Shown here in pieces: positions 7,828 through 47,449 of a stretch of DNA of 62,284 nucleotides; position 1 is the first letter of the stretch; every line of letters starts with the position of its first letter. Position numbers and translations under genes: made by a program. Source of the stretch: an uncultured Flavobacteriales bacterium (GTDB taxonomy: Bacteria; Bacteroidota; Bacteroidia; Palsa-965); contig CAIQQJ010000171.1 in the NCBI GenBank assembly GCA_903873905.1, positions 1-62,284 of the forward strand. The letters run 5' to 3'. Below the pieces are notes generated by a model, which was not told the DNA's origin, made no database searches, and saw only the letters and a program-made list of their open reading frames with translations.

Positions 7828-7833
7828 TCTAAG

Positions 7834-7983
7834 AGTATTGGGTATTGAGTATTGAGTATTGAGTATTGAGTATTGAGACTGCATTTAGGTATTGTGTGTT
7901 TGATTATTCTTAAATAGAATTTACTTAGAAAAATGATTAATAAAAAATGACATCAGTTTTATAAAATCCCAATACCCAATACT
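7834..7983. repeat. Facing heptamer arrays, locus A (90-bp noncoding insert)
   Basis: The left arm (7834-7877) is six AGTATTG-type units plus AG, the second unit being GGTATTG. The right arm (7968-7983) is two units in opposite orientation; read on the minus strand it is AGTATTG then GGTATTG, the same order of variants from the outer edge as in the left arm. The 90-bp insert contains a stray AGGTATTG and no gene. The element fills the gap between the trxB stop (7986) and the MORN gene start (7827). Transcribed from the minus strand it could fold into a short stem. Confidence 0.8.
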
Positions 7984-12097: not shown

Positions 12098-14941
12098 TTA
12101 TTTGTTCACGATCACCCGTTGAGTGGTTCGGTGACCATCAGCAGTAATAACTGCAATTAAATAAACACCTGCATTTGAAATGTTCAATTGCTGCAAGACA
12201 TATGGTTGAACATTTTGTTTGCTCACAAGTTGGCCCATTGCATCATAAATCATTAGATCTGCAACTTGAGTTGTGTTTAATTGCAACGTGAAGGTTCCGT
12301 TGTTAGGATTTGGCATCAAGGTGAAGTTGTTGCTTTTATTTGCATTTGCATGCACTCCTGTACAGGCATCCACATAAATCGAATCGGTGTTGCTTCCTGT
12401 ACATCCGTTAATATCTGTATAGGTGTATGAAATGAAATTCATTCCCGCACTTGCAACAGATGGATTGAAAGATCCCGCTGTTACTGCAGTACCTGAATAC
12501 ACACCTCCCGCTGGAGAACCTCCACTCAATGTGTAGGCTCCATCTGCAGTGCAAACAGTATCCACTACTATTGCAAGTGTAACAATTGGTGCATTTGGAT
12601 CGCTAAGACTTGTTCCAATCTGAGTTGTACATCCATGCGTATCGGTTACTGTGCAGTTGTATGCACCTGCTGCTATGCCAGTGAGATCTTCGGTTGTTGC
12701 TGAAGTATTCCAAAGGAAAGTGTAACCAGGAGTTCCACCTGAAATGGTAATGTCAATTGAGCCATTTGTTCCACCGCAGGAAGTTGGATTTGTTGCTGTG
12801 GTTAATGTTGCAACAATAGCAGTCGGTTCATTGATGACGACAGTTCCACCATCTGTGCAGCCATTTGCATCTGTAAGTAGACCGACATAAGTTCCTGCAA
12901 TTAATCCAGTAAGGTCTTCAGTATTATACATGCCGCTGTTCCAATCAAAAGTAAATGGACCTGTTCCGCCAGATACTGTAAGATTAATTGAGCCATCTGC
13001 GCCACCGAAACAAGTAGCATCAACTGAAACAACTGAAACTGAAATTGCGCTTGGCTCTGTTAATGAAATTGTAGTTGTGCTTGTGCAACCATTTGCGTCA
13101 GTTATTGTGTAGGAATAAGGTCCACCCACTGTTACCGTGAATGTGCCTGTTCCTGTGTAGGGAGCTGTTCCTCCGGAACCATTTACGGTTACTGTTGAGT
13201 TTCCTCCATTACATAAAATTGGAGTTGCAGATGAACTCGATGTAAGAATTCCGGGCTGTGTAATATTGAATGATTGTGTTGTAACACAACTGTTCGCATC
13301 CGTAACTGTGCAAGTCCATGTTCCTAAGGTAAGTCCAGTTACTGCAAATGTTCCGTCTCCAGTTGGATTGCCTGGTGTCCAGTTGTAAGTATACGGTCCA
13401 GTTCCACCTGTTGCTGGTGTTACTGAAGCAGCACCGTTTGATCCTCCATTACATGAAATGTTGTTTTGCGAAGCTACATTTGAAATGATAGCAGTAGGTT
13501 GTGTGATGTTGAATGTTCTTGTTGTAGAGCAACTATTCGCATCAGTTACTGTACATGTCCATGTGCCAGACGTTAATCCAGTTACAGAAACAGTTCCGTC
13601 TCCTGTCGGATTACCTGGTGTCCAGTTGTAGGTGTATGGTCCTGTTCCTCCTGATGCAGGAGTTACTGAAGCATTACCATTACCTCCACCAAAACATGAA
13701 ATGTTGGTTTGTGATGCAGCACTCAATACAATTGCTGTAGGTTGTGTAACAGTAAATGTTTGTGATGTTGTATTTGATGAAGCATCTAAAACAGTAACAG
13801 TATAAGTTCCAGCTGGCAATCCTGTTGCTGTTGCAAGATTTCCTCCTGTTGGAGCCCATGAATAAGTATAGGGAGCTGATCCTCCATTAGGTGTTGCCGT
13901 TAGGGATGCTGTTGATTGTCCATTACAAAGAATGGTTAATGATTGAGTTATAGTTGCAGAGAAAAGATTGGTAATTACTACAGATCCATCACCAACATTC
14001 AAACCACCATCTACTTGATTTGTTCCTGATAAAAATGATCCACCACCACCGCCAACTTGCGCATCACCCTGTCCACCATTATGTCCAGCGCCTCCGCCAG
14101 AATATCCACCACCACCGCCAGACCATGTATAGTTTTGGCTCGAATAGTTTGTATTGTCACCGGAAGCTCCACCACCTCCAAAACCACCATCATTTCCATT
14201 TGGACTTGAAGAAAGAATTCCACCATTAAATCTTGTTCCTCCCATGTTTGCATAGGTATTTCCAAAAGTTGGATCATAATCAGAAATCCATCCTGCGCCA
14301 GGTGCTGCTGAAATATAAGTTCTATTGGAAAAGCCACCACCAGTTCCACCAGTTCCACCAGCAGCAATATAGCCTCCAGCATCGGTTACCGAATAACCAT
14401 TTGTTCCATAATTTCCGTCATTAATATTGGCAACGACCATTGTAGAAGAGGCTAACCCACCACCACCACCACCGGCAGCCAAAATCAATCCAGCTCCACC
14501 AATCGCACCAGTATAAACAAATGATCCACCACCACCAGAACCTCCGCAAAAATATTGTGCTGGATTTACAGATGCTTGTCCTGCTTGGCCAATAGCAATA
14601 TTGAGAACAGTTCCGCTTGTCAATGAAAAATCGGCAGTTACAATTCTGCCAGAACCTCCTGGACCAAAACCACCAGTGCCACCCGATGCGCCAGCAACAC
14701 GTATCCTGTAAACCCCAGTTGCAGGAACAGTCCATGTTTGTATTCCGTTATTGGAAGTAACGGTTCCATTTAGATTGGTTGACAAATACGCAGCATTAAC
14801 CTGCAACTGTGATGGTCCTAATCTGCCAGTGGCCGTACAGGTTGAGAAGTTGTAAATCTGAGCTCGGCTATTAAATACAAGCAGACTAAAAATACCGGCA
14901 GCGAAAAGCTTTGCATGAGTGAGAAATCGTTTTTTTTTCAT
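12098..14941 (-). CDS. Large glycine-rich, SprB-repeat surface adhesin with T9SS sorting domain
   Basis: This 947-residue protein starts with a signal peptide (MKKKRFLTHAKLF, ending FNSRAQ). Residues about 60-325 form a glycine-rich domain (SGGTGGFGPGGSG, GGGGGGLASS, GGGGGYSGGGAGHNGG). Six SprB-like repeats follow (about 330-795), each with a CNGG or CFGG motif, a GPYTY-W core, a DANGC-like turn and a TQP/TEP end. Repeats 2 and 3 are almost identical. A linker precedes a T9SS type A tail (FTLMPNPNNGTFTL to the end). SprB of Flavobacterium is a gliding adhesin. A role in surface attachment or gliding is therefore plausible here but not shown. It carries its own terminator and is divergent from the subtilase gene. 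Confidence 0.85.
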   Translation of the reverse strand: MKKKRFLTHAKLFAAGIFSLLVFNSRAQIYNFSTCTATGRLGPSQLQVNAAYLSTNLNGTVTSNNGIQTWTVPATGVYRIRVAGASGGTGGFGPGGSGRIVTADFSLTSGTVLNIAIGQAGQASVNPAQYFCGGSGGGGSFVYTGAIGGAGLILAAGGGGGGLASSTMVVANINDGNYGTNGYSVTDAGGYIAAGGTGGTGGGFSNRTYISAAPGAGWISDYDPTFGNTYANMGGTRFNGGILSSSPNGNDGGFGGGGASGDNTNYSSQNYTWSGGGGGYSGGGAGHNGGQGDAQVGGGGGSFLSGTNQVDGGLNVGDGSVVITNLFSATITQSLTILCNGQSTASLTATPNGGSAPYTYSWAPTGGNLATATGLPAGTYTVTVLDASSNTTSQTFTVTQPTAIVLSAASQTNISCFGGGNGNASVTPASGGTGPYTYNWTPGNPTGDGTVSVTGLTSGTWTCTVTDANSCSTTRTFNITQPTAIISNVASQNNISCNGGSNGAASVTPATGGTGPYTYNWTPGNPTGDGTFAVTGLTLGTWTCTVTDANSCVTTQSFNITQPGILTSSSSATPILCNGGNSTVTVNGSGGTAPYTGTGTFTVTVGGPYSYTITDANGCTSTTTISLTEPSAISVSVVSVDATCFGGADGSINLTVSGGTGPFTFDWNSGMYNTEDLTGLIAGTYVGLLTDANGCTDGGTVVINEPTAIVATLTTATNPTSCGGTNGSIDITISGGTPGYTFLWNTSATTEDLTGIAAGAYNCTVTDTHGCTTQIGTSLSDPNAPIVTLAIVVDTVCTADGAYTLSGGSPAGGVYSGTAVTAGSFNPSVASAGMNFISYTYTDINGCTGSNTDSIYVDACTGVHANANKSNNFTLMPNPNNGTFTLQLNTTQVADLMIYDAMGQLVSKQNVQPYVLQQLNISNAGVYLIAVITADGHRTTQRVIVNK

Positions 14942-24283: not shown

Positions 24284-25279
24284 ATGAACAGAAAAACTTT
24301 CATTTCCAGAACAGCAATGTTTGCTGCATTCTCCACAATTGGAACTTCTGCATTTGCAGGATCAAATACCAAAAAGAAACACATTACAAATCCAAACAGT
24401 TCCAAAGGTGGACCCTTGATTATTTCTACATGGAGTCATGGAATGCCAGCGAATGAAGAGGCGATGAAAACACTTCTTGCAGGAGGATCGCTTGTGGATG
24501 CTGTTGAGAAAGGTGTGATGGTTGTTGAATCGGATAAAAATAATACTAGCGTTGGACTTGGTGGATTTCCAGACCGAGAAGGTATCGTTACACTCGATGC
24601 TTCCATCATGGATCAAAATGGAAATGCGGGATCAGTTGCATTCGTTCAAGGAATAGAACATCCAATTTCGCTTGCACGTGCAGTGATGGAAAAAACGCCG
24701 CACGTAATGATTGTTGGAAAAGGAGCTGAACTTTTTGCGAAATCATTAGGCATAACTCAATTGCCAAATGCATTGACCGATCAAACCAAAAAAGCTTGGC
24801 AGGATTGGTTAAAAGAAAAAAATTACAAACCTGTGATCAATATTGAAAATCACGATACGATTGGTTTGCTTGCAATGGATGCGAATGGAAATGTTTCAGG
24901 ATGTTGTACTACGAGTGGTCTCGCATGGAAAATGCACGGACGTGTTGGAGATTCTCCAGTGATTGGAGCAGGATTATTTGTGGATAGTGAAGTGGGCGCA
25001 GCTACATGTACTGGACTTGGTGAAACAGTTTTGCGGACACTTGCATCACATTTAGCTGTGGAAAAAATGAGAGATGGAGCAACACCGCAAGAAGCTTGTG
25101 AGGAAGCAATTAATCGGATTGTAAAAAAACATGCCAACTACAAGGATTTTCAAGTTGGTATTCTTGCGGTAAATAAATTGGGAGAACACGGTGCATATGG
25201 TTTGCAAAAGGGGTTCAATTATGCATTGCATCAACATGGAACCAATAAATTATTTGACGCAGATTATTTTTTGAAATAG
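24284..25279 (+). CDS. N4-(beta-N-acetylglucosaminyl)-L-asparaginase (glycosylasparaginase)
   Basis: This 331-residue Ntn-hydrolase cleaves the GlcNAc-Asn bond left after N-glycan trimming. The precursor self-cleaves before the nucleophile Thr192, visible in NHDTIGLLAMDANG. Other family words are GGFPDREG (93-100), DASIMDQNG, GRVGDSPVIGAG and ATCTGLGETVLRT. The N-terminal NRKTFISRTAMFAAFSTIG followed by TSAFA resembles a Tat-type signal with RK in place of RR, as in other periplasmic members of this phylum. It lies 67 bases after GH92. The stop codon TAG is merged with heptamer locus C. Confidence 0.93.
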   Translation: MNRKTFISRTAMFAAFSTIGTSAFAGSNTKKKHITNPNSSKGGPLIISTWSHGMPANEEAMKTLLAGGSLVDAVEKGVMVVESDKNNTSVGLGGFPDREGIVTLDASIMDQNGNAGSVAFVQGIEHPISLARAVMEKTPHVMIVGKGAELFAKSLGITQLPNALTDQTKKAWQDWLKEKNYKPVINIENHDTIGLLAMDANGNVSGCCTTSGLAWKMHGRVGDSPVIGAGLFVDSEVGAATCTGLGETVLRTLASHLAVEKMRDGATPQEACEEAINRIVKKHANYKDFQVGILAVNKLGEHGAYGLQKGFNYALHQHGTNKLFDADYFLK

Positions 25280-25370
25280 TATTGTGTATTGAGTATTGGG
25301 TATTGAGAAAAATTCTCGAGAGTCATCCCAATACTCAATACCCAATACTCAATACCCAATACTCAATACT
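25278..25370. repeat. Facing heptamer arrays, locus C (compact hairpin)
   Basis: The left arm (25278-25307) is AGTATTG, TGTATTG, AGTATTG, GGTATTG plus AG. The 19-base loop is AAAAATTCTCGAGAGTCAT. The right arm (25327-25370) is six units in opposite orientation plus two bases. The arms can form an imperfect stem of about 30 pairs in the mRNA between the glycosylasparaginase and ROK genes. The left arm starts in the TAG stop codon and the right arm ends eight bases before the next ATG, so the element fills the whole gap. It lacks a terminal U-run, so a classical terminator is unlikely. Confidence 0.85.
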
Positions 25371-42225: not shown

Positions 42226-42255
42226 AGTATTGAGTATTGAGTATTGAGTATTGAG
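42226..42255 (+). repeat. Heptamer array, locus D left arm
   Basis: Four perfect AGTATTG units plus AG, preceded by T (TTAGTATTG). It lies one base beyond the FRG gene stop (42257) and eight bases from the acyl-CoA dehydrogenase ATG. It faces the array at 43351-43394 in inverted orientation. All 30 bases are identical to the outer part of that arm. Confidence 0.9.
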
Positions 42256-42256
42256 T

Positions 42257-43336
42257 TTATTTTTGTTTCTTTTCCATGTAGGAATTTTGTGTGAAAGAGG
42301 AAAGATCATTGAAACTTGGAAATAGATAATCCTGTGTGATCTTTGGTTTATATTTTCGGAGTTCATTTTTAATATAAGTTGATAACCTTTTATGGAAATT
42401 ATAACAGATAATTCCTTTGTTAATTTCTTCGACTTTCTTGTCTCTAACTTCCTTAGGGATATTTGGCGTATTAGTTCCTTTAATAGCATAATGTTCCATA
42501 AGAAGCCCTATAGTTTCTTCTAATGGTTTTGTGGGATGAATATTAAAAAGAAATAACCCTTCTTGATTAATAATATTTAAATTATTATTGACTCCCCAAG
42601 AAAACTCATCACCAGGGAAGTCTTCTATTCTGAAGACAGCTGCGTGTTCAGTAGATGTAGAATATTTAAACAGAGCCGGTACTGATAACTGTTTTCTCAC
42701 TAAAATCTTGTTATTGAGTTCTTCAACTGAAACTCCGAGTAATTCAGCGAATTCAACTTTGTTTATAGATTCTTCTTGGATTGTTTTGTGAATATATTCC
42801 ATTTCTTTCGGATTGTATGAATAATCCTTAGCACTCATTTTCACAAAAGTGTGATCTTCGGAAATAGCATATAATGAAAAATAATTTTCAATTTGATTTG
42901 AACTTTCTCGAGCTTTTCCCTCAGATCCAAAAAACAAAGCTATTAAAGGATTTCTTGTCCAATCAGTATAGGGAGTTGCAGTTCCATGATGCCTTAAAAC
43001 GCTCAGTATTGAAAAAATACTTGGATGTTTATCACCGCTTATATTTTCAATGTATCTTTTAAATAACCCTCCATGCCACAATAAAGCTTCCTTGCAGACA
43101 TAATTTAAATATTCCTCAACATTTTCATTTTGATTCGCCATATCATTAATAATCCAAAAGCGCTGAAGTGATGTATATAATTTATGATTGGCTTGTGCAG
43201 AACCTCGCCAAATGTATTTTTTATTGGTTTCTAAGTTATTCAAGAAATCATCGACCTGCGATTTAGTTTCAAAATTAACAACAGAAAAGATTTTCTCTTT
43301 TTCCTCTAATGTTTTATATGTACTTAATTCACCCAT
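42257..43336 (-). CDS. FRG-domain protein carried between inverted heptamer arrays
   Basis: This 359-residue protein has no signal peptide. The FRG domain (about 20-270) is recognised by the first block YIWRGSAQANHKLYTSLQR (about 41-59) and the second block LRHHGTATPYTDWTRNPLIA (about 117-136), with FFGSEGKA following. These equal the family words (F/Y)RGQ and QHYGLPTRLLDWT-NP-VAL. The domain's activity is not established; FRG proteins are frequent near phage-defence and mobile DNA. The C-terminal part (about 275-359) is charged and helical. The gene sits inside the beta-oxidation operon, is transcribed with it, and is flanked at 1 and 14 bases by heptamer arrays, so it looks like a cargo gene. 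Confidence 0.85.
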   Translation of the reverse strand: MGELSTYKTLEEKEKIFSVVNFETKSQVDDFLNNLETNKKYIWRGSAQANHKLYTSLQRFWIINDMANQNENVEEYLNYVCKEALLWHGGLFKRYIENISGDKHPSIFSILSVLRHHGTATPYTDWTRNPLIALFFGSEGKARESSNQIENYFSLYAISEDHTFVKMSAKDYSYNPKEMEYIHKTIQEESINKVEFAELLGVSVEELNNKILVRKQLSVPALFKYSTSTEHAAVFRIEDFPGDEFSWGVNNNLNIINQEGLFLFNIHPTKPLEETIGLLMEHYAIKGTNTPNIPKEVRDKKVEEINKGIICYNFHKRLSTYIKNELRKYKPKITQDYLFPSFNDLSSFTQNSYMEKKQK

Positions 43337-43350
43337 TTTATTTCTTTAGT

Positions 43351-43394
43351 CTCAATACTCAATACTCAATACTCAATACTCAATACTCAATACT
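43351..43394 (-). repeat. Heptamer array, locus D right arm
   Basis: Read on the minus strand, six perfect AGTATTG units plus AG. The outer end merges with the thiolase stop codon: TAG at 43393-43395 supplies the AG of the first unit. The inner end is 14 bases from the FRG start codon. Confidence 0.9.
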
Positions 43395-44571
43395 ACCCCA
43401 GCAGTTCAAATATACCTGCCGCACCCTGACCAGTCCCTACGCACATAGACACTAGTCCGTATTTCTTTTTCCTTGCGCGTAATTCATGGAATAACTGTAC
43501 AGATAGTTTAGCTCCTGAACAACCGAGTGGATGTCCCAATGCAATCGCTCCACCATTTACATTCAGAATATCCGTATTCAATTTTAATTCACGTGTAACA
43601 GCAATGGATTGTGATGCGAATGCTTCATTCAATTCAATCAAATCAATTTGATCCATTTTTAATCCTGCTTTTTCCAATGCTTTTGGAATTGCATAAACTG
43701 GACCCATTCCCATAATGCGTGGAGGAAGACCAGCAGTTGCATAACTCACTAAGCGAGCAATTGGTTGAACATTCAATTCTTTCAACATACGTTCACTCAC
43801 TACAATTACAAATGCAGCTCCATCGGAAGTTTGGGAAGAATTTCCAGCAGTTACACTTCCATCAGCAGCGAAAACAGGTTTTAACTTTGCAAGCGCTTCG
43901 ATGGATGTATCAGCACGTGGACCTTCATCGGTATCACAAATTGTTTCGCGAGTTTGACGTTTGTTGTTTGCATCCAGAAAAATCTCATTCACTTTAATTG
44001 GTGCAATTCCACTTTTGAATTTTCCTTCCTTTATTGCTGCAATTGCTTTTTGATGTGATGCAAATCCGAAAGCATCCTGATCTTCTCTGGAAATATTGAA
44101 TTCATTTGCAACCGCTTCAGCTGTCAATCCCATTCCCCAATACCAATCTGGATTTTTATCTGCAATTTCAAAATTTGGAATCACGCGCCATCCTCCATTC
44201 GGAATCAAACTCATCGATTCAACGCCACCTGCAATAATGCAATCCGCAAGTCCAGCATGAATTTTTGCTGATGCCATCGCAATTGTTTCCAATCCCGATG
44301 CGCAAAAACGATTGATGGTCATGCCAGAAACTTTGTCTGTATCGAGTGACATCAAAGAAATGAATCTTCCAATGTTCAAACCTTGTTCAGCTTCTGGCAT
44401 TGCATTACCGACCATTACATCGTCGATTCTGTTTTTATCCAAATTCGGAATTTGTGCAACGACTTGACGAATCACTTGCGCCGCAAGATCATCGGGACGA
44501 AGAAAGCGAAACATTCCTCGGGATGATTTCCCAACTGCTGAGCGAAGACCTGCTATGATGTATGCGTTCAT
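43393..44571 (-). CDS. fadA: Acetyl-CoA C-acyltransferase (3-ketoacyl-CoA thiolase)
   Basis: This 392-residue thiolase performs the last step of beta-oxidation. The acyl-accepting Cys90 is in NRFCASGLE, the His of the [19 protein letters not shown] block is in place, and the second catalytic Cys is in [12 protein letters not shown] near the end. Length and motifs agree with the degradative FadA type rather than a biosynthetic acetoacetyl-CoA thiolase, as does the linkage to a multifunctional 3-hydroxyacyl-CoA dehydrogenase and acyl-CoA dehydrogenase. Its stop codon is shared with heptamer locus D and its ATG is three bases from locus E. Confidence 0.95.
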
Positions 44572-44574
44572 TTT

Positions 44575-44611
44575 AGTATTGAGTATTTAGTATTGAGTAT
44601 TGGGTGTTGAG
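44575..44611 (+). repeat. Heptamer array, locus E left arm (37 bp)
   Basis: Units in order: AGTATTG, AGTATTT, AGTATTG, AGTATTG, GGTGTTG, then AG. Faces the 37-base array at 45004-45040. The two arms match at 34 of 37 positions when one is reverse-complemented, and the unusual second unit AGTATTT is present in both. It lies between the thiolase start and the S23 gene stop (four bases away). Confidence 0.9.
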
Positions 44612-44615
44612 ATAA

Positions 44616-44966
44616 TTATTTTAATGTGGATTGTAATTTGTATGTCATCTTTTGGAGTGCTTCCAACTCTTTCAGAATTGGTTCGCAAGCTTCTTCTGAT
44701 AATAATTTCAATTTTGATGCAACTACCAACTGTGTTGTTAATTCATAAGAAGATCCATTCGAAATACCAAGAAATTGGTTGAATTCTCCTTTCGTGTTTC
44801 TTCCAGCCCCTTCAGCAATATTCGATGGAATAGAAACAGCACATTTTCTCATTTGAGAAGTAAGCCCATAAACTTCTTCTTTTGGAAGTTTAGAAGTTAT
44901 TTTATAAACGTCAACTGTCAAATCAATTGCCCTCTGCCAGATTTTTAATTCCTTAAATTGATGCAT
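44616..44966 (-). CDS. Four-helix-bundle protein (S23 / Avd-like family) between inverted heptamer arms
   Basis: This 116-residue helical protein carries the family words HQFKELKIWQRAIDLTVDVY (2-21), LPKEEVYGLTSQMRKCAVSI (27-46), PSNIAEGAGR (47-56) and SNGSSYELTTQL (69-80). The family includes proteins encoded in intervening sequences of 23S rRNA genes and the Avd accessory protein of diversity-generating retroelements. No reverse transcriptase or rRNA is nearby. Family members are thought to bind nucleic acids. The gene is co-directional with the beta-oxidation operon, lying between the FadN-like gene and thiolase, and is bracketed by 37-base inverted heptamer arms, so it looks like a mobile or formerly mobile unit. 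Confidence 0.88.
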   Translation of the reverse strand: MHQFKELKIWQRAIDLTVDVYKITSKLPKEEVYGLTSQMRKCAVSIPSNIAEGAGRNTKGEFNQFLGISNGSSYELTTQLVVASKLKLLSEEACEPILKELEALQKMTYKLQSTLK

Positions 44967-45003
44967 AGTATTATTTATATTCCATTAACTTTTCATAGTC
45001 TGT

Positions 45004-45040
45004 CTCAATACTCAATACTCAATACTAAATACTCAATACC
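45004..45040 (-). repeat. Heptamer array, locus E right arm (37 bp)
   Basis: On the minus strand: GGTATTG, AGTATTT, AGTATTG, AGTATTG, AGTATTG, AG. It ends three bases from the stop of the FadN-like gene (45044) and lies 37 bases upstream of the S23 start codon. Confidence 0.9.
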
Positions 45041-45043
45041 CCC

Positions 45044-47449
45044 TTAATTCCGTAATACTTTTCCCCCTGTTAATATGGATTGCATTCTTTCCAATGTTTT
45101 CCTTTCCGAACAAAGTGATAAGAATGCTTCTCTTTCCAAATCCAATAAATATTGTTCACTGACCAATGTAGGTTGTGATAAATCACCACCGCACAATACC
45201 CACGCCAATTTCTGTGAAATCAGTAGATCGTGTTTGGACATGTATTTTCCAGCATAGAAACTGTCAGCACCCAAGTAAGCCAGTCCGAGCGCGTTTCGTC
45301 CAAGCACACGAATGTCAGTGCGAGGAACTGGTTTAGTATAGCCTTCATCCGCCAAGCGAATTGCTTCTGCTTTTGCTTCTGCCAATAAACGGTTGCGTGA
45401 TAGTACAACTCTGTCTTTTCCTTCACGCAAATAACCCAAATCAAAAGCTTCGTAAGCTGAAGTGGAAACTTTCGCTTGTCCAATCGTCAAAAAACGATCA
45501 CGGAAAGCATTCAATTCCACATCACCTTCATGCAATTGATCGGAAAGTCGCTCTGCGAATTCTTTTGTTCCACCACCGCCGGGAATTACACCAACACCAA
45601 ATTCAACCAATCCCATATACGTTTCTGCGTGTGCAACAACTGCATCGGCATGTAAACAAATTTCTGTTCCACCACCTAAACACATGTTGTGAGGAGCAGC
45701 AACAACTGGAATGGAAGAATATCTCACACGAGAAGTGGTCGATTGAAATGCTCTAACAGCAAAATCCAATTCATCCCATTCTTGTTCAACGGCAAACATG
45801 AATACCATTCCGAGATTTGCTCCTGCAGAAAAATTTCCACCTTCATTTGAAATCACCAATCCACGATAATCTTTTTCTGCAATGTCAATCGCAGTATTTA
45901 TTCCCTGCAAAACTTCTCCACCAAGTGTATTCATCTTTGTGTGAAACTCCAAATTGAGAATTCCATCACCGATATCGGTAAGAGTTGTTCCAGAGTTTTT
46001 CCAAACCACTTTTGATTCTGGAATGGAATCAAGCATGATGAAGGCTTCCGTTCCCGGAATTATTTTGTACGATTTTGTAGGAACGTCATAAAATAATTTC
46101 TTGCCATTCTCACTTTTGTAAAATGATTTTGCGCCTGAAGCAAGCATGTCATAAATCCATTGAGCTGGTTTTATCGCAGCGGCCTCCATTGCTTTCACTG
46201 CATCTGCAACTCCTATTGCGTCCCACACTTCAAATGGTCCAAGTTCCCAGCCAAAACCTGCAGACATTCCTTGGTCAATTTTATAAAGTTCATCAGCAAT
46301 TTCAGGAATGCGATTGGAAACATAAACGAATAATCCGAAGAATGATGTACGGTAAAATTCACCTGCCTTATCTTTTCCAGCAACAAGAACTTTCATTCGT
46401 TCGCGCAAATTCTCAATTGGTTTTGTCGCTTCAAGTGTTGCAAATTTCACTTTCACTTGTGGACGATACTCCAATGTTTTCAAATCGAGAGCAAGAATTT
46501 CACTTTTGCCATTTGCTCCTTTTACCTTTTTGTAAAAACCTTGTCCAGTTTTATCACCCAACCATTTGTTCTCTCCGAGTTTTGCTACATATCCAGGAAG
46601 AACAAATAAATTTCTTGCTTCATCATTTGGACAATTCTCATAAACACCATTCGCTACATGAATGAGCGTATCCAATCCAACAACATCTGTAGTTCTAAAC
46701 GTTGCCGATTTTGGACGACCAAGAACTGGTCCAGTTAATTTATCCACTTCTTCAACAGTTAATCCCATTTTTTCAACTAAATGAAAAAGAGCCATGATGG
46801 AATAAACTCCAACACGATTGGCAATGAAAGCAGGAGTATCCTTGCACAACACAGTTGTTTTTCCTAGGTACAATTCTCCGTAATGCAAAAAGAAATCGAT
46901 GATGTCCTGTTTTGTTTCTGGTCCTGGAATTATTTCGAGTAATTTTAAATAACGAGGAGGATTGAAAAAGTGTGTTCCGCAAAAATGTTTTCTGAAATCT
47001 TCAGAACGTCCTTGTGTCAGTAGGTGAACTGGAATTCCAGAAGTGTTGGTTGTAATTAGTGTTCCTGTCTTTCTGAATTTCTCAACTTTTTCAAAAACCT
47101 GTTGTTTGATATCCAGTCGTTCAACGACGGCTTCAATTATCCAGTCGCAATTTGAAATGTCTTTTAAATTATCATCGAAATTCCCTGTGGTAATTCGATT
47201 GACGAATGATTTCCTGTAAATAGGTGAGGGGTTAATTTTCAGAACAGCTTGTAAAGAATCATTCACAATTCTATTTCTGACAACCGCGTCATTGAGTGTT
47301 TTTCCTTTTTGCTGTTCTACAGGAGTCAAATCTTTCGGAACAATATCGAGTAACAAAACTTCCAGACCGATATTCGCGAAATGACAAGCGATGCGGGAAC
47401 CCATTACTCCGGATCCGAGGACTGCGACTTTTCTAATGTTTCTATTCAT
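45044..47449 (-). CDS. fadN-like: Bifunctional 3-hydroxyacyl-CoA dehydrogenase / enoyl-CoA hydratase (FadN type)
   Basis: This 801-residue protein has the dehydrogenase first: NAD-binding VAVLGSGVMGSRIACHFANI (8-27), catalytic-region words GTHFFNPPRYLKLLEI and KDTPAFIANRVG, and a duplicated C-terminal dehydrogenase domain. The crotonase domain is second (about 480-690): NEGGNFSAGANLG and MCLGGGTEICLHADAVVAHA, with GVIPGGGGTKEF. This order is that of FadN of Bacillus rather than FadB/FadJ of E. coli, in which the hydratase comes first. It hydrates enoyl-CoA and oxidises 3-hydroxyacyl-CoA. The start is 11 bases after the MarR gene stop. Confidence 0.93.
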   Translation of the reverse strand: MNRNIRKVAVLGSGVMGSRIACHFANIGLEVLLLDIVPKDLTPVEQQKGKTLNDAVVRNRIVNDSLQAVLKINPSPIYRKSFVNRITTGNFDDNLKDISNCDWIIEAVVERLDIKQQVFEKVEKFRKTGTLITTNTSGIPVHLLTQGRSEDFRKHFCGTHFFNPPRYLKLLEIIPGPETKQDIIDFFLHYGELYLGKTTVLCKDTPAFIANRVGVYSIMALFHLVEKMGLTVEEVDKLTGPVLGRPKSATFRTTDVVGLDTLIHVANGVYENCPNDEARNLFVLPGYVAKLGENKWLGDKTGQGFYKKVKGANGKSEILALDLKTLEYRPQVKVKFATLEATKPIENLRERMKVLVAGKDKAGEFYRTSFFGLFVYVSNRIPEIADELYKIDQGMSAGFGWELGPFEVWDAIGVADAVKAMEAAAIKPAQWIYDMLASGAKSFYKSENGKKLFYDVPTKSYKIIPGTEAFIMLDSIPESKVVWKNSGTTLTDIGDGILNLEFHTKMNTLGGEVLQGINTAIDIAEKDYRGLVISNEGGNFSAGANLGMVFMFAVEQEWDELDFAVRAFQSTTSRVRYSSIPVVAAPHNMCLGGGTEICLHADAVVAHAETYMGLVEFGVGVIPGGGGTKEFAERLSDQLHEGDVELNAFRDRFLTIGQAKVSTSAYEAFDLGYLREGKDRVVLSRNRLLAEAKAEAIRLADEGYTKPVPRTDIRVLGRNALGLAYLGADSFYAGKYMSKHDLLISQKLAWVLCGGDLSQPTLVSEQYLLDLEREAFLSLCSERKTLERMQSILTGGKVLRN

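Follow-up and report, generated by a model that had tools for sequence, protein, structure and literature searches.

Inverted heptamer arms around S23 genes of distant bacteria suggest a miniature mobile element of wide occurrence, with a protein that reads its own repeats

We analysed a stretch of 62,284 nucleotides from the draft genome of an uncultured Flavobacteriales bacterium (contig CAIQQJ010000171.1 of assembly GCA_903873905.1), here called the window, in which a small gene of the S23 family lies between two inverted arrays of heptamers in a gap of a beta-oxidation operon. The genes and features at this site are:

43393..44571, minus strand: thiolase gene, which separates the two insertion gaps
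44575..44611, plus strand: left (outer) heptamer arm of the S23 element, AGTATTG units, reading inward
44616..44966, minus strand: S23 / 23S rRNA IVP (four-helix-bundle) gene, 116 aa; PF05635, TIGR02436
45004..45040, minus strand: right heptamer arm of the S23 element, AGTATTG units, reading inward on the minus strand
45044..47449, minus strand: 3-hydroxyacyl-CoA dehydrogenase / enoyl-CoA hydratase gene (FadN-like), upstream edge of the S23 insertion site

The S23 unit lies between the FadN-like gene and the thiolase gene, with all three on the minus strand, which agrees with a first-pass annotation of the sequence that had placed the unit in an operon gap. That annotation had also assigned the enclosed gene to the S23 family, and this is borne out by the matches to PF05635 (E=3e-38; 130.7 bits vs a cut-off of 33.8, residues 5-109) and to TIGR02436, 'four helix bundle protein' (125 bits vs a cut-off of 24). 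The protein is homologous to the PDB entries 2gsc and 2rld, the two solved structures of S23 proteins, which have five chains apiece. The element has a size of ~470 bp and the S23 ORF fills the space between the arms; it is the sole gene there, and no transposase was found within the element. The left arm (44575-44611) reads AGTATTG AGTATTT AGTATTG AGTATTG GGTGTTG AG, and the right arm (45004-45040) reads, in reverse complement, GGTATTG AGTATTT AGTATTG AGTATTG AGTATTG AG. Comparing the two arms gives 3/37 mismatches, the same as the 34 matching positions reported earlier for 37-bp inverted arms, and the variant AGTATTT is indeed the second unit from the outer edge in both.

Beyond the S23 pair, the window contains in total three inverted arm pairs, one of which encloses a candidate defence gene:

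7833..7877, plus strand: left arm of an empty element, ~90 bp spacer
7970..7983, minus strand: short right arm of this element, pairing with 7833..7877
25278..25307, plus strand: left arm of a palindromic element that is empty (spacer of 21 bp)
25329..25370, minus strand: right arm of this element, pairing with 25278..25307
42226..42256, plus strand: AGTATTG arm to the left of the FRG gene, in the second element (operon gap next to that of S23)
42257..43336, minus strand: FRG-domain gene between the AGTATTG arms (PF08867, E=4e-14; PADLOC candidate defence family PDC-S15, E=2e-61)
43351..43394, minus strand: AGTATTG arm to the right of the FRG gene, in the second element

The second arm pair and its FRG gene sit in the gap between the thiolase and the acyl-CoA dehydrogenase genes, in the same operon as S23. 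Because none of the other FRG loci has both arms (0/16), we read the window FRG gene as a passenger in arms of the S23 type. When the whole draft genome is searched with an AGTATTG 14-mer at one mismatch, 40 forward and 41 reverse matches are obtained; those inspected form ~20 intergenic elements, mostly gene-free pairs of a plus arm followed by a minus arm (75-150 bp) and some single arms. Most arm pairs of the source genome enclose no S23 gene, and one encloses the FRG gene. A second dispersed family, with the unit AGTTCGG, occurs at ~20 places in the source genome, mostly as inward palindromes with spacers of 1-70 bp, and a further S23 gene, located on contig 20, has arms of this unit. Heptamers of a third dispersed family, AGTGACA, are present on contigs 19, 45, 59, 60, 63, 75, 77, 97, 115 and 129 of the draft genome (G000), in which no S23 gene with AGTGACA arms was found. 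Elsewhere in the window, at 13257-13711, a 243-bp unit stands twice in tandem (79% alike); these copies are probably repeated domains in a long ORF (12098-14941, minus strand).

When comparing the locus to relatives, we find that the order MarR, FadN, thiolase, acyl-CoA dehydrogenase is conserved, and that a FadN-like gene adjoins the thiolase gene in G001, G002, G003, G005 and G006. The first-pass annotation had treated the S23 unit as an insertion and proposed a search for the empty FadN-thiolase gap; such empty gaps of 20-46 bp were found in G006 and G001. At the same place, a short sequence with CACATAG-like repeats stands in G002, and in G003 this gap (L184:1910-3053) has a different gene without arms, which we take to be DUF1016/YhcG-like. 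An S23 gene occupies the gap in G005 and is 57% identical to the window S23. This gene bears in two ways on what would have spoken against the first-pass reading, relatives with S23 at this place but no arms: the arrays are kept, yet they have another sequence (GAGACAT) and form a palindrome on the upstream side only. The gap that holds the FRG gene is empty (~30-65 bp) in G003, G005 and G006. As the gaps are empty or differently filled in relatives, we conclude that the S23 and FRG units are variable insertions. In the sequences compared, the FadN-thiolase gap is a hot spot where small accessory genes insert. Empty and filled sites have flanks that cannot be aligned between relatives, which leaves target duplications unreadable.

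For the comparison of flanks, 65 S23 genes from the source genome, its relatives and GTDB species were used; the 23 GTDB loci were found with the window S23 protein as the single query and were thus chosen by their likeness to that protein. Among these 65 genes, the upstream flanks align far better with the reverse-complemented downstream flanks than with the downstream flanks as they stand. The arms are heptamer arrays whose unit is different in nearly every S23 gene, and what they share is an AG repeated every 7 bases in the inward direction. After dereplication of 105 S23 proteins to 77 at <65% identity, we observed at least one such arm at 49/77 genes and both arms at 31/77, which upholds the earlier proposal that S23 genes in general are flanked by inverted heptamer arms. 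On the opposite strand of the same 77 genes, used as a control, 6 have at least one arm and 2 have both. Furthermore, inward AG-heptamer arms were found at none of the control genes (MarR 0/29; GxxExxY, PF13366, 0/30). In the autocorrelation of the S23 flanks, lags 7, 14 and 21 are the only peaks; among other periods, 5, 6 and 9 are found at 0-2% and 8 at 13%, the latter being an octamer minority. Both arm tests were failed by about a third of the S23 genes, and most other S23 genes of the source genome have units off the AG rule (octamers, GAATATC and others).

The arms extend beyond the Bacteroidota. For S23 genes of cyanobacterial plasmids, Azospirillum and Gemmatirosa, both arms are present by one of two tests in 11/14 cases, with units such as TAGGGAG in Nostoc and an ACAGAGG-type unit in Azospirillum. 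The neighbours of S23 on the cyanobacterial plasmids are operon genes unrelated to it, namely those for ribonucleotide reductase subunits, cas6 and cas4, and cas10 and cmr3. In three of these plasmid loci (L254, L260 and L261), S23 lies within CRISPR-Cas operons (cas6-S23-cas4, cas10-S23-cmr3), where the arms are heptameric in L254 and L261 and octamer-like in L260. No S23 gene was found in the 50,697 phage genome records searched. The GxxExxY (PF13366) genes have inward inverted arms of their own at the loci L192, L205, L206, L208, L215 and L216, with CACAGAG/CGCAGA-like units at a spacing of ~9 or 12 bases, and of the GxxExxY genes 37% have inverted flank matches and 27% direct ones. These arms resemble a cassette type that parallels S23 but follows a different code.

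When AGs are counted in the best run of each arm, the dereplicated set has two peaks. The first, at two, is at chance level and is present on the control strand too; the second is at five, with 38 arms, and there are 16 arms with four and 13 with six AGs. Without dereplication, the counts for four, five and six AGs are 19, 51 and 15. The S23 protein of Xanthomonas is a homopentameric toroid according to Lin et al. 2006, as cited in PMC4990558, and one heptamer per S23 subunit would follow naturally. The sequence of the repeat also follows the protein: the distance between heptamer profiles rises with protein distance (Mantel r=0.41; 0/5000 permutations as high) for 48 S23 genes with both arms, compared with the AG columns omitted and in pairs <70% identical. 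The correlation is 0.40 when flank GC is removed and 0.32 in Bacteroidota alone.

At the level of genomes, S23 (PF05635) is present in 177/247 sampled Bacteroidota genomes, with as many as 15 copies per genome. Five-AG runs number 16.7 per Mb in the 177 S23-positive vs 1.7 in the 70 S23-negative genomes (p=1e-15), and array density correlates with S23 copy number over the 247 genomes (Spearman 0.57). Here the S23-negative genomes were used as the control; the reversed AG pattern is an unfair one because heptamer arrays contain GA too. Inside one large family, array density of S23-positive and S23-negative genomes does not differ significantly (p=0.12), and shared ancestry could contribute to the genome-level correlation. 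In four other sampled genomes (G112, G214, G232 and G233), the arrays found carry the arm unit of the resident S23 gene; all unit-sharing arrays of G233 and G112 are within 15 kb of the S23 gene. Two genomes, G293 and G147, have no PF05635 match yet contain 797 and 348 five-AG runs, respectively; another partner gene, a lost S23 gene or unrelated repeats are possible readings. The exact pattern GTATTGAGTATTGAG was found in only 3/59 genomes among relatives; as relatives use other units, exact-pattern searches are unsuitable for them.

That S23 genes of distant bacteria lie between inverted heptamer arms points to a miniature mobile element with a wide distribution, in which the S23 protein would recognise the repeats of its own element. 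In its explicit form, to which we give a probability of about 0.62, this is a mobile element in which S23, as a pentamer, binds arms of five heptamers at the two ends, each S23 lineage having specific heptamers, in which the element or its passengers are copied and empty copies may be served in trans. The reading starts directly from the arm architecture, the inward orientation, the 7-base period, the maximum at five AGs, the tie of lineage to repeat, the dispersed empty copies with the resident unit and the absence at the same sites in relatives; from these, we infer the binding of S23 to the arms, one heptamer per subunit, the action in trans and the movement itself. In such an element, S23 would form a five-membered ring, and each arm would present five dinucleotides for recognition, with an AG or a relative of it in each heptamer and one for each subunit. 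As each five-dinucleotide arm would take one five-membered ring, two S23 rings would mark both ends of the element as inverted sites. Every S23 lineage would have its own heptamer. With its arms bound, the element could be copied into intergenic gaps, and so could whatever lies between a pair of cognate arms, be it no DNA at all or a passenger of the FRG type; the enzyme for this would come from outside the element. Since any DNA between two cognate arms could be copied, the S23 gene would also serve the dispersed empty palindromes in trans.

From the shared variant unit, the first-pass annotation had argued that the two arms of the window element were copied or moved as a pair, and this is not well sustained. 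Over 38 S23 elements, the unit order does match between arms (581 vs 529 expected; z=5.5 in a shift-tolerant test), and for the window S23 element alone p=0.05. A register test with fixed outermost windows gives only z=1.8 because it misregisters the arms. As the unit order agrees beyond shuffling, the argument from matching register has some general force. As a proof of joint copying, we rejected the matched variants: the match is modest overall and does not hold for the AGTATTG family of the source genome, where the two arms of one element resemble each other no more than arms drawn from different elements do (permutation p=0.32). No common spacer or master copy was found for the empty palindromes. 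Given that own arms are no closer than cross arms and that the spacers are unrelated, simple copying of a single master does not account for the empty elements.

The agreement in unit order is also what an element acting at the RNA level might show, where the arms would pair in the operon transcript, RNase III would cut out the S23 segment and the arms would be kept as an RNA stem, with no DNA movement driven by them. The RNA of the window S23 element does fold as one long terminal stem, arm to arm, around the ORF (z=-6.1), so that the pairing of the arms is not chance, and rRNA intervening sequences (IVS) of the same family are excised by RNase III (PMC4990558). Selection for such a stem on the sense strand would give an excess of G-U among the arm mismatches, but there are 28 G-U and 38 A-C (p=0.27); as this is no excess, there is no sign of selection for a sense-strand RNA stem, and stem selection via G-U pairs was rejected as a candidate. 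A role for the arms in RNA structure is possible, yet it lacks a G-U signature. However, a stem needs no 7-base period, no five AGs, no fixed AG strand and no link between unit and protein, and it does not fit the AGTATTG family, where the own arms of an element match no better than arms taken from different elements. We thus regard the RNA-level explanation as rather unlikely.

Autoregulation would account for the ring and the five-fold AG spacing in a different way. TRAP binds (G/U)AG repeats, and S23 might similarly bind its own 5' leader RNA through the AG heptamers there, in which case the repeats would be regulatory sites and not the ends of an element. The upstream arm does sit just before the S23 start codon; however, the downstream arm is nearly as frequent and has its AGs on the other strand (both arms at 31/77), and most arm pairs of the source genome come without an S23 gene, one of them around the FRG gene. 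We consider autoregulation improbable.

About equally improbable is that the palindromes are older, independent intergenic repeats, arisen by slippage and similar to STRRs, in or near which S23 genes merely insert. The empty palindromes far outnumber those with S23, their spacers are unrelated, and heptamer repeats that have no known partner gene are on record (TAACTGA, PMC4679880). As described there, STRR and TAACTGA repeats of cyanobacteria, Beggiatoaceae and Bacteroidota resemble the S23 arms in being intergenic tandem heptamers of genome-specific sequence, and TAACTGA in reverse complement gives a CAGTTAT unit similar to the S23 arms of the locus L120. They differ in being described as direct repeats with no assigned role, with no mention of inverted pairing or of S23 in the passages considered (PMC4679880). 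Insertion into older repeats does not predict that the unit goes with the similarity of the S23 proteins, between genomes and between phyla alike, that arrays are scarce in S23-negative genomes, or that other small cassette genes (GxxExxY, FRG) are not found in heptamer arms.

The least probable explanation by far is that of REPIN-like repeats moved by a Y1 (RAYT/TnpA-REP) transposase: short palindromes scattered in intergenic gaps with a companion gene are in line with it and the source genome has three Y1_Tnp genes, but none of these has AGTATTG or AG-heptamer arms (0/3), for which reason we rejected a Y1 transposase as the partner, and the repeats are tandem heptamer arrays whose unit-sharing gene is S23. 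The likeness to REPINs and RAYT (TnpA-REP; PMC3116915) lies in genome-specific short intergenic palindromes with tens of copies and a repeat-sharing companion gene, and the difference lies in the companion, a non-catalytic four-helix-bundle protein in the case of S23, and in the ends, which are heptamer arrays with five AGs.

We next compare the proposed mobile element to the systems in which S23 is known. The 23S rRNA IVS of Coxiella has 428-444 nt, a 28-bp terminal stem with an S23 ORF in the loop, and tandem GACAGAT heptamers ahead of this ORF, whose number varies between strains (PMC4990558). The window element (~470 bp) resembles such IVS of Leptospira and Coxiella in size and in having an S23 ORF in the loop of stem-forming terminal inverted repeats, and it resembles that of Coxiella in the tandem heptamers with AG beside the ORF. 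Unlike an rRNA IVS, it lies between a FadN-like gene and a thiolase gene and not in an rRNA helix, and arms of its type also occur empty or around another gene. As the defining feature of location fails, the name rRNA IVS is not used for it here; in appearance it is a free-living form of this element outside rRNA. S23 also shares its fold family with Avd, the accessory protein of diversity-generating retroelements, but the match of the window S23 is weak (27.6 bits, below the equivalog cut-off of 80), and no reverse transcriptase was found in the operon region examined. A link of S23 to heptamer arms was not found in the literature searched, whose scope left out most subscription journals and all preprints; an earlier description is possible.

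Within that literature, what is new is an IVS-type element outside rRNA with a heptamer code that is tied to the protein. One could go further and place S23 at the origin of a class of mobile elements whose repeat code is read by a protein, in which a homopentamer would read five lineage-specific heptamers per end, one per subunit, and would spread empty palindromes and passengers in trans; we offer this as a tentative idea that is somewhat doubtful at present. Along the same line it is conceivable, as both arms run inward from the breakpoints, that arms are added from a template to the 3' ends of a DNA break and then trap filler. The function of the S23 protein and the origin of rRNA intervening sequences have been described as unknown or unclear (PMC4990558), and our findings join three loose ends: S23, the rRNA intervening sequences and the intergenic heptamer repeats. 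They may explain why S23 genes are found in unrelated operons, CRISPR-Cas operons included. A genome-wide screen listed the S23 family as CRISPR-associated (PMC10910872), and insertion of S23 into CRISPR-Cas operons may underlie this listing. Lastly, the FRG gene of the window, a candidate anti-phage gene of the PDC-S15 family, lies in such arms; if the arms move passengers, they would provide a route for defence genes into operons.
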